From: Patescibacteria group bacterium | Lineage (GTDB): Bacteria > Patescibacteriota > Patescibacteriia > UBA1558 > S5-K13 | DNA: 33,283 nt | Direction of reading: 5' to 3' | NCBI GenBank assembly: GCA_028692545.1 | Contig: JAQUXC010000002.1 | Span: 92,082 to 125,364, forward strand | Shown: in pieces, positions 30,775 to 33,283 of the stretch | Position numbering within the stretch: position 1 is the first letter of the stretch | Layout of the letters: each line of letters opens with the position of its first letter | Position numbers and translations under genes: made by a program | The notes under the pieces: model-generated | Seen by the model: only the letters and a program-made list of their open reading frames with translations | Databases searched by the model: none | What the model was told of the DNA's origin: nothing

Positions 30775-31980
30775 TTATATTTTCATTTTATTTGCAATTC
30801 TCCTCAAAGCTGAAACAAATGCTGCCATTCTAAGGCTAATATTATTTTCTTTTGAAATATCATAAATTTCATCAAAAGATTTATACATTATTTCTTTTAA
30901 CTTAGAATTTACTTCTTCTAAGCTCCATTTTTCATCTTTTATATTTTGAAGCCACTCAAAATACGAAACCGTTACACCACCTGCATTTGTAAGTACATCA
31001 GGAAGAAGTAAAATTCCTTTTGATTTCAAAATCAAATCTGCTTCTGGACAAACAGGACCATTTGCCAATTCAAAAACAATTTTTGCTTTTATATTTTCTA
31101 CATTTCCACTAGTAATTTGATTTTCAAGAGCGCAAAGAGCCAACACCTCTGTATCTAATTCCAATAATTCTTCGTTTGTAATTGTTTTAATATTTACAAA
31201 ATCTATTACACTACCTGTATCTTTTTTAAATTCCAAAATTTTATCAATATCAAGTCCATCCTCACAATGTATTGCACCCTTTGAATCTGATACTGCAATA
31301 ATTTTGTAACCAGCATCAAACAAAATTTTTGAGAATACCGCTCCTGCATTTCCAAATCCCTGAACAACAACCCTAGAATCCTTTTGAAGTTTCAATTTCT
31401 CTATTGCTTTTTCAAAAATATAAAATGCCCCTTGAGCAGTAGCATTGTCTCTTCCAAGTGATCCACCATTTTCAATCGGCTTTCCTGTAAATGTAGCAAA
31501 ATCACCAAATTCATCTGCCATTATTGACATTATTTTAGGATTTGTATAAACATCTGGAGCTGGAATATCTTTGTCTCTACCAATTATTTCTTTTATTTTT
31601 TGTATAAATCCACGAGACAATTTTTCAAGCTCATTTTCAGATAATAATTTTGGATCAACTGTTATTCCACCTTTAGCACCACCGAGTGGAATTCCTACAA
31701 CACTACATTTTATTGTCATCCAAAAAGCAAGAGCTTTTACTTCACTCAAATCTGTTTGAAAATGAAATCTTATCCCACCTTTATATGGGCCCATTGTATT
31801 ATCATATTGAACACGATATCCTGTAAAAACTTTTAACTCTCCATTATCCATTCTTATTGGAATAGAAACTTGAATGAATTTATCAGGATTTTGAAGTTTT
31901 AGAAGAACATCCTTGTTCAAATTTGCAATTTCACCAGCATTTCTTAACTGTTCCATTGCATTGTCAAATGGATTTATCAT
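30775..31980 (-). CDS. gdhA: Glu/Leu/Phe/Val-family dehydrogenase, likely glutamate dehydrogenase
   Basis: 401 aa. It interconverts glutamate and 2-oxoglutarate plus ammonia using NAD(P). The N-terminal substrate domain carries GGIRFHFQTDLSEVKALAFWMT, KCSVVGIPLGGAKGGI (catalytic Lys) and DIPAPDVYTN. The Rossmann domain has VVVQGFGNAGAVF, then LANGPVCPEAD and DVLTNAGGVTVSYFEWLQN. This length and the PAPDV segment fit the hexameric small GDH type, though Leu or Val dehydrogenase cannot be fully excluded. It follows trxA by ten bases, so it is probably in one transcript with it. One of the few central-metabolism genes in the window. Confidence 0.9.
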   Translation of the reverse strand: MINPFDNAMEQLRNAGEIANLNKDVLLKLQNPDKFIQVSIPIRMDNGELKVFTGYRVQYDNTMGPYKGGIRFHFQTDLSEVKALAFWMTIKCSVVGIPLGGAKGGITVDPKLLSENELEKLSRGFIQKIKEIIGRDKDIPAPDVYTNPKIMSIMADEFGDFATFTGKPIENGGSLGRDNATAQGAFYIFEKAIEKLKLQKDSRVVVQGFGNAGAVFSKILFDAGYKIIAVSDSKGAIHCEDGLDIDKILEFKKDTGSVIDFVNIKTITNEELLELDTEVLALCALENQITSGNVENIKAKIVFELANGPVCPEADLILKSKGILLLPDVLTNAGGVTVSYFEWLQNIKDEKWSLEEVNSKLKEIMYKSFDEIYDISKENNISLRMAAFVSALRRIANKMKI

Positions 31981-31990
31981 ATTATAAAAA

Positions 31991-32311
31991 TTATTTTATG
32001 AGTTCTTCTATCTTATTTTTAAGCACATCTTTTGGTAGAAGTCCCATTGTGGTATCTTTAAGTTCACCATTTTTGAAATACAAAACAGTTGGAATGCTCA
32101 TAATATCAAACTTTTCTGCGGTGGCACTTGCTTGATCTACATCAAGTTTTACAATTTTTACGCCTTTTCCTTCAAATTCTTTTGCAAGCTCATCTATTAT
32201 AGGAGCAAGTGCCTTGCATGGTCCACACCAATCTGCAAAACAATCCACGACAAGATTATTATTATTTTTTACAAATTCATCAAAATTTGTGTCATTTAAA
32301 ATTTCTGCCAT
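31991..32311 (-). CDS. trxA: Thioredoxin
   Basis: 106 aa, classical size. It has FADWCGPCKALAPII with the active-site CGPC, the conserved VKLDVDQASATAEKFDIMSIPTVLYFKNGE (cis-Pro segment SIPT) and a C-terminal helix. It reduces protein disulfides and supplies electrons to reductases. It is positioned between a Cys-rich small protein gene (78 bases upstream) and gdhA (10 bases downstream). No thioredoxin reductase is in the window. Confidence 0.97.
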   Translation of the reverse strand: MAEILNDTNFDEFVKNNNNLVVDCFADWCGPCKALAPIIDELAKEFEGKGVKIVKLDVDQASATAEKFDIMSIPTVLYFKNGELKDTTMGLLPKDVLKNKIEELIK

Positions 32312-32390
32312 TTTATTAGCCCTTGGTTATCAGTCATTAGCAATTAAGTAGAACCTAGTACCTAAAACTGATATTAATTATTAAACAAAA

Positions 32391-32636
32391 TTATAATTCA
32401 AATTTATCTTCTTTTTCATTTGGAAAATAAAATTGAGCTTTTGTCTCTACAATACACTTTTCTATTGTAACAAAAATCTTATCAATTTGCTCTCTATTAT
32501 AAACATATGCACTTCTATTTGCACAATTTCCAAGTGTTTTTATTTTTTTCAAAATTCCATTTGTCCTGCAAGTTGCAAGACATTTAAATTTTTCTTCTTT
32601 GTTTGTAGTTCCCAAACATTTTTGTTCCTGTTTCAT
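32391..32636 (-). CDS. Small Cys-rich protein of unknown function upstream of trxA
   Basis: 81 aa with five cysteines spaced CLGTTNKEEKFKCLATC, NCANRS and KCIVETKA. Charged, soluble and probably helical, with no signal peptide. It has no SD. It has a good divergent promoter (32675-32703) and is followed by trxA and gdhA on the same strand, so it could be a thioredoxin target or a metal- or redox-sensing protein, but this is inference only. Family not recognised. Confidence 0.6.
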   Translation of the reverse strand: MKQEQKCLGTTNKEEKFKCLATCRTNGILKKIKTLGNCANRSAYVYNREQIDKIFVTIEKCIVETKAQFYFPNEKEDKFEL

Positions 32637-32674
32637 AAATATAAAATATTTATAAATATATAACTATACATATA

Positions 32675-32703
32675 AATATATAGTATATTTATATTTATGT
32701 CAA
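32675..32703 (-). promoter_or_regulatory. Promoter of the Cys-rich protein-trxA-gdhA unit
   Basis: Minus strand TTGACA (32703-32698), a 17-base spacer, TATATT (32680-32675). It is back to back with the plus-strand promoter at 32721-32749; the two -35 elements form an inverted TGTCAATA...TATTGACA pair. Confidence 0.65.
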
Positions 32704-32720
32704 TAATAATTAAATAAATA

Positions 32721-32749
32721 TTGACATTTATATCAAAATATGATATAAT
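32721..32749 (+). promoter_or_regulatory. Perfect consensus sigma70 promoter
   Basis: TTGACA (32721-32726), exactly 17 bases, TATAAT (32744-32749), and an upstream TGA extended -10. It is the best promoter in the window and drives the plus-strand RNA locus starting near 32756. Confidence 0.85.
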
Positions 32750-32755
32750 TATATA

Positions 32756-33118
32756 TTAATCTAAAATGTACCTTGAAAAAATTTTAACGATTAAAAAAGC
32801 GCAGAGATTACAAAAAACAGCTATTCCTATCATGTTTGCGAGATGGAAATAGCCACAGACATGAGACAAAAAGACGATAAAAACATCATTTATGACTATG
32901 TATCGCCAAAATCTCATACAACTCTGCTCTACTTTGATCGTTGAAAAAAAACGTACTTGTTTGTAAAAATGGACAATAAATAATATTGTCCAATAAGCTG
33001 ATTGTTTCATGTCAGCAACCAAGAACAGTTTCATCGCCAAATGGAGGTAAAAAATGAAGCTAAAAACAATTTACTCAAAAAAATTAAGACCGGTCTCTAT
33101 GGGATCGGTTCTTTTTTT
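32756..33118 (+). ncRNA. Putative structured RNA, unassigned (about 360 nt)
   Basis: It runs from the consensus promoter to a hairpin-T7 terminator. P1: 32786-32806 pairs with 32922-32942 (18 of 21 positions, counting one G-U). Inside it lie P2, 32820-32827 with 32845-32853 (gctattcc/ggaaatagc), and P3, atgaga/tctcat (32861-32866, 32912-32917) capped by cgata/tatcg (32875-32879, 32901-32905). Together these form a three-way junction. A further hairpin ggacaata/tattgtcc is at 32971-32991. No RNase P, tmRNA, SRP or T-box signature is present. The alternative is short ORFs (32766-32852, 32843-32944, 33054-33170). Confidence 0.45.
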
Positions 33119-33170
33119 ACTAAAAACTGCCATATGTATTTGCACATTACCAATAAATATGTACAGTTAA
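33054..33170 (+). CDS. Possible 38-aa peptide with strong SD overlapping a terminator
   Basis: The ATG at 33054 is preceded by TGGAGG with good spacing. The peptide begins MKLKTIYSKKLRPVSMG and has a short hydrophobic stretch (SVLFLLK, AICICTL). Its first third runs into the terminator hairpin (33086-33112), so full translation would need readthrough. The 3' end overlaps the transposase gene on the other strand and probably includes IS sequence, so it may be a truncated gene or a leader peptide. Doubtful as a mature protein. Confidence 0.3.
   Translation: MKLKTIYSKKLRPVSMGSVLFLLKTAICICTLPINMYS
33086..33118 (+). terminator. Terminator of the plus-strand RNA locus
   Basis: accggtc (33089-33095) pairs with gatcggt (33103-33109), with one G-T wobble, extended outward by a/t and g/c pairs. 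It is followed by T7 (33112-33118). Confidence 0.75.
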
Positions 33171-33283
33171 CAGTCAAGGGTTACACTTTCTAAATACTTT
33201 TCATGAGGAGTAAGTCCGTTAAGGGTTAAATGTATTCTTTTAAAATTGTAATAATTTAGCCATTCATAAGGAGTGTTCCAAAT
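33167..33283 (-). CDS. IS transposase (DDE integrase-core) C-terminal fragment
   Basis: 38 codons in frame from the window edge to a TAA at 33169-33167. The sequence WLNYYNFKRIHLTLNGLTPHEKYL is split here as WLNYYNFKRIH and LNGLTPHEKYL. It matches the end of IS3/IS481-type integrase-core transposases (usually YYNxxRPHxxLxxLTPxE). The rest lies beyond the window. No terminal inverted repeat can be paired because the other end is unseen. The element end should lie between about 33120 and 33166. Confidence 0.85.
   Translation of the reverse strand: MWNTPYEWLNYYNFKRIHLTLNGLTPHEKYLESVTLDC

Follow-up and report, generated by a model that had tools for sequence, protein, structure and literature searches.

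To address what is encoded between a strong promoter and a terminator that enclose no convincing gene, we studied positions 32721-33118 of the window (the whole stretch of 33,283 nucleotides that was analysed), a region at the end of contig C2 of the 1.07-Mb genome G000. An earlier note had proposed here a candidate novel structured RNA behind a perfect promoter. The promoter is indeed perfect: TTGACA starts at 32721 and, after a 17-nt spacer, TATAAT runs up to 32749, with TG preceding the -10 box (an extended -10, TGA), giving 12 of 12 consensus positions on the plus strand (32721-32749) and the only score of 12 within 31500-33283. Transcription of the window copy is predicted to start at about 32756. 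The terminator was also rightly called good, as an intrinsic terminator lies at 33088-33118 on the plus strand, with a stem of 10 pairs (5 of them G-C) at 33088-33110 followed by a T run. None of the open reading frames (ORFs) in the region matched any Pfam family. A 94-codon antisense ORF covers the RNA region, and a Shine-Dalgarno GGAGG (33043-33047) with an ATG at 33054 (33043-33056, plus strand) opens a 38-codon ORF, MKLKTIYSKKLRPV..., which overlaps the terminator and has its stop codon within the adjoining insertion sequence.

The RNA is flanked on the left by minus-strand genes, an 81-aa ORF, a thioredoxin-like gene and a glutamate-dehydrogenase-like gene (names assigned by eye). The 81-aa ORF (32391-32636, minus strand) contains cysteines and has no Pfam match; a promoter-like site, TTGACA-17-TATATT from 32703, faces it and stands back to back with the RNA promoter. 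On the right, the region is bounded by mobile-element DNA. The 23-nt GCCATATGTATTTGCACATTACC (33129-33151, plus strand), which lies outside the RNA, is the end motif of an IS-like repeat and is found as a repeat end in related genomes. The end of another, multicopy insertion sequence, with a transposase C-terminus, occupies 33160-33283 on the minus strand; it begins TGTACAGTTAAC and breaks the assembly, and the contig stops there. The RNA and its terminator lie outside this insertion sequence. The multicopy insertion sequence with the start TGTACAGTTAACAGTCAAGG has about 15 copies in G000 (33160-33283 of the window and 14 other places); nearly every copy lies at the end of a contig, most contig ends carry one, and the assembly is fragmented by them.

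Folding of 32756-33118 gave -88.2 kcal/mol compared with -57.9 ± 4.8 kcal/mol for dinucleotide shuffles (z = -6.35), and 0 of 100 shuffles folded as well; the folding-energy z was -4.85 for the core (32766-32964) and -5.23 for the 3' tail of the window RNA. The fold contains the closing stem, three-way junction and extra hairpin that had been described before. The closing stem P1 has 22 pairs, formed by 32782-32806 with 32922-32946, and inside it the P2 hairpin arm (32820-32853) and the P3 arm (32861-32917) form the three-way junction. Accessory hairpins fold in the window copy at 32970-32992, with no aligned counterpart in the homologs, and at 32997-33016, both in the variable 3' tail (all features on the plus strand). 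The further claim that such long-range stems are hard to get by chance holds only modestly for stem length: long-range helices of 22 pairs or more arose in 3 of 300 shuffles, so that the length of P1, taken alone, is only about a 1% event. It holds for energy, since none of these shuffles matched the observed value (0/300), and the homologs decide the matter.

We searched for relatives of the RNA with covariance models. A DNA similarity search over the order matched only the promoter and therefore cannot find the RNA. Model R1 was built from the window core alone; a scan of 381 class-level genomes with it brought up a further copy in G000 itself (G000:C11:20527-20747; E = 1.3e-8, and 1.5e-10 in the scan of G000), and when nearly the whole of G000 was taken as stretches only the window and C11 copies stood out. 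Model R2, built from these two copies, found one copy each in G001 (C51), G003 (C15) and G002 (C101), with E values from 5e-31 to 4e-18, and model R3 agrees with these matches. Family f1 is represented in the sample by G000 to G003 only; each of them carries the RNA, with five copies in total, and the covariance models gave no convincing copy outside this family in 381 class-level and 380 phylum-level genomes. The exact conserved-core pattern AAAATAGTGYGGAGGGAN{0,1}CTAT, run over 84,980 species genomes, hit exactly three contigs, those of G001, G002 and G003. Several weaker matches were set aside. An intergenic R1 match in G066:C10 (30.5 bits) fell to 21.6 bits with R3 while the true copies stayed high, had no promoter that we noticed and was judged to be chance, as were matches in G049 and G309, which lie within groL and dnaE genes; a match in G077 was a plain hairpin, and one in G000 (L136:5665) a short hairpin, each resembling P1 only.

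The five copies share a closing stem of 22-24 bp, the three-way junction and the two arms, and all five loci have a promoter of the form TTGACA-17-TAnnnT with TGn before the -10 box. The junction nucleotides are the most conserved part of the RNA. In four copies P1 and the junction read AUYAAAAUAGUGYGGAGGGAACUAU or near it, and the opposite strand of P1 reads CUCURCACUGCUUUGAUU or a close variant.

The earlier note had proposed looking for compensatory changes in related genomes, and relatives exist in which the closing stem and arms are preserved in this way. Between the window and C11 copies, 22 of 22 P1 pairs are kept and 4 are changed on both sides. Over the five copies, 90.8% of cells were paired with 23 double-changed pairs, which 0 of 500 shuffles reached, while controls with slid partners gave 39-48% of cells paired and at most 4 double changes. 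RNAalifold independently proposed the same P1, P2 and P3, with 22 doubly changed pairs. Because the alignments had been fitted to the structure, we added a partner-swap null, in which the columns were kept and 3' partners with the same base in the window copy were swapped; for the whole structure, 0 of 5000 draws reached the observed values. P1 had 85 of 88 cells paired compared with 74.2 ± 2.6 under this null (0/5000 for cells paired) and, over five copies, 97.3% of cells paired with 7 pairs changed on both sides; its arms are gap-free in the copies shown in the alignment, so this result is independent of alignment freedom. P3 was also strong, and P2 was weaker, with 2-6% of null draws reaching the observed values. 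For the whole structure, the compensatory changes exceed every null used, as in a conserved structured RNA family.

These changes refute a chance fold or an overlooked protein gene. Such an explanation could draw on the AT-rich intergenic DNA and on the antisense ORF across the region, and it would have to account for homologs with compensatory changes, for length differences among copies that are not all multiples of three and for the lack of any Pfam match; we give it practically no weight. By sequence and structure this is a new RNA family, restricted to one bacterial family among the genomes sampled, which supports the earlier note's interpretation.

The window copy itself is a divergent paralog. 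It is 51-57% identical to the other copies, which are 63-87% identical among themselves, and it keeps the helices. Its conserved junction string GGAGGGAACUAU has been lost, as have about 60 nt at the tip of P3, by which this arm is longer in the four homologs, and P1 contains two mismatches. It is possible, though we doubt it, that within a real family the window copy is decaying, a paralog left behind among insertion sequences, and that only the C11 copy works in G000. Besides the low identity and the lost junction consensus and P3 tip, the adjoining mobile elements and the resemblance of the copies in single-copy genomes to the C11 copy, not to the window copy, fit with decay. However, the window promoter and terminator are perfect, all P1 pairs are kept with respect to C11 with four double changes, and the window fold retains its z of -6.35. 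Decay would be compatible with action of the RNA either in trans or in cis.

What follows P1 differs from copy to copy. In G001 a terminator comes straight after P1, the next gene is convergent and there is no downstream ORF, so that a downstream gene is not needed there. In G003, GGAGG is followed by ATGAAACTCAAATTTCCCTAA and then a terminator, and the window copy has GGAGG, the 38-codon ORF and the terminator inside this ORF. In C11, the promoter, the RNA, GGAGG-ATG, an orphan of 277 aa whose cysteines resemble a zinc ribbon, and a terminator (L114:4293-4320) make up one apparent transcript, while in G002 GGAGG precedes a 185-aa orphan with no terminator found in between. The 3' side thus comes as a terminator directly (one copy), as a Shine-Dalgarno with a tiny ORF and a terminator (two copies) or as a Shine-Dalgarno with an unrelated orphan gene (two copies). 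GGAGG-ATG lies 3' of P1, apparently on one transcript with it, at four of the five loci (the window and three of the four homologs) and is absent in G001. Our estimate from site counts puts the chance expectation of GGAGG-N4-9-ATG at about 0.5% per such stretch, so its presence at four loci is not chance, and it points to a leader role.

The RNA could accordingly be read as a cis-acting 5' leader, riboswitch-like or protein-binding, which regulates the following gene at the level of translation or termination, the gene having been lost or shortened in G001, G003 and the window. The single apparent transcript in C11, the GGAGG and 185-aa ORF of G002, the GGAGG, short ORF and terminator of G003 and the window, and the strongly conserved junction all agree with such a leader. 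Yet there is no conserved set of related downstream genes: the 277-aa and 185-aa orphans did not align with each other, G001 has no ORF, and even G001 and G003, which belong to one genus and whose RNAs are 87% identical, have unrelated sequences after P1. Neither orphan had a Pfam or PHROG match above the cut-off, and the C11 orphan had no relative in the 381 genomes, in viral contigs or in phages. We consider regulation in cis less likely than not, but it is the main rival reading and a serious one. Both orphans (L114:3427-4257 and L190:3679-4233), which lie directly behind RNA copies, contain CxxC motifs.

The neighbourhood of the copies also bears on whether the RNA is part of a mobile element, as a transposon guide or scaffold RNA or as IS cargo. 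IS ends lie immediately to the right of the window copy, G000 has two RNA copies, and the positions vary between genera, with no neighbour gene shared across them; the RNA may be connected with the repeat whose end lies at 33129-33151. However, no protein gene recurs beside the five copies, the other copies have no recognised IS end next to them, the copy number is low, and the G001 and G003 copies share a position, divergent from lepB-hisS (gene names assigned by eye). In addition, the core pattern was found in no viral contig, and phage records gave short chance matches only. A mobile-element RNA is therefore very improbable. The repeat itself has the end GC[CA]ATATGTGTGTGCACATTACC (window 33129-33151; loci L091-L108), with at most 10 copies in G007; TTGACA stands 8 nt further out in most copies seen, and TTG about 8 nt outside the end in essentially all of them, as if an IS-like element with this end always inserted equally far upstream of -35 boxes.

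We then compared the RNA with known classes. The earlier note had seen no signature of a known RNA class by eye, and this agrees with Rfam 15, which matched only tRNAs in the window, gave noise far below the gathering cut-off in a permissive scan of the RNA stretch and had no RNA match at the gathering cut-off for the four homologs. The Rfam models work on this genome, since in G000 they recognised RNase P RNA, tmRNA, rRNAs, tRNAs, a SAM riboswitch and LOOT RNA. RNase P RNA and tmRNA, which are similar in length to the new RNA, sit elsewhere (C7:43255-43720 and C8:45602-45983), so the window locus is neither of these, and ARAGORN found no tmRNA in the window. No 6S or SRP RNA was found in the roughly two thirds of G000 that were scanned. 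Like the new RNA, 6S RNA (RF00013) is a stand-alone transcript a few hundred nucleotides long; both have a promoter to themselves and a long closing stem leading into a large, asymmetric loop. In contrast to 6S RNA, the new RNA has the P2 arm on the 5' side of the junction and only 2-4 nt on the 3' side, and no copy matches the RF00013 model.

Three-way-junction riboswitch leaders likewise have a closing stem, conserved junction nucleotides and variable outer helices, and the likeness extends to those copies in which P1 is followed by a terminator that resembles an expression platform or, downstream, by a Shine-Dalgarno. Here the downstream genes are unrelated orphans or absent, and there is no Rfam riboswitch match although the SAM riboswitch of G000 was recognised. 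As a kind, orphan structured RNAs and leaders are already known, and the new RNA resembles LOOT RNA (RF03000) and other orphan bacterial Rfam RNAs in being one; LOOT RNA has a separate locus in G000 and matches no copy of the new RNA. The LOOT RNA (L138:3400-3528, 75.5 bits) and the SAM riboswitch (L139:4444-4555, 52.2 bits) lie on contig C3. On contig C1 of G000, L126:4007-4235 (about 124007-124235) is another non-coding leader with strong structure; it is about 230 nt long, has a TTGACA promoter to itself, precedes a GGAGG-ATG ORF of 142 aa and is unrelated to the new RNA by covariance model.

Taken together, these results favour, at slightly better than even odds (about 0.5), the reading that this locus is one member of a new structured RNA family, an RNA that acts autonomously in trans and carries a replaceable tail. 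The tail is often mRNA-like, yet it is unconserved and can be absent, and we therefore read the RNA as the selected unit. The RNA would be transcribed from its own strong promoter, and its 5' domain of about 170-235 nt folds into P1, the three-way junction, P2 and P3. This folded domain would be the functional unit, acting by itself in trans, with a protein or the machinery of transcription or translation as its most likely binding partner, and whatever lies 3' of P1 would be needed only to terminate the transcript or to connect it to the next gene. We infer the trans action and the binding partner, and likewise that the window copy still functions and is not decaying.

More speculatively, and with little confidence, we suggest that the RNA might be a family-specific housekeeping regulator of reduced-genome bacteria, and also a fixed 5' module placed before interchangeable orphan genes. 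As such it might act, for example, on RNA polymerase or the ribosome in place of a standard RNA, such as 6S, that is missing or unrecognisable; a 6S-like role is possible, although the shape differs as described above.

To our knowledge, little is known about structured RNAs in the candidate phyla radiation, and a search of open-licence papers found no mention, for this lineage, of an RNA of this kind. The observation on a single sequence has become a covariation-supported family of five copies; every genome sampled from one bacterial family has it, and none of the other genomes searched does. The presence of one stand-alone copy beside copies fused to orphan genes makes action in trans or in cis directly testable. 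The distribution of the RNA, in all sampled genomes of the family and in none of the others searched, suggests an important lineage-specific function.
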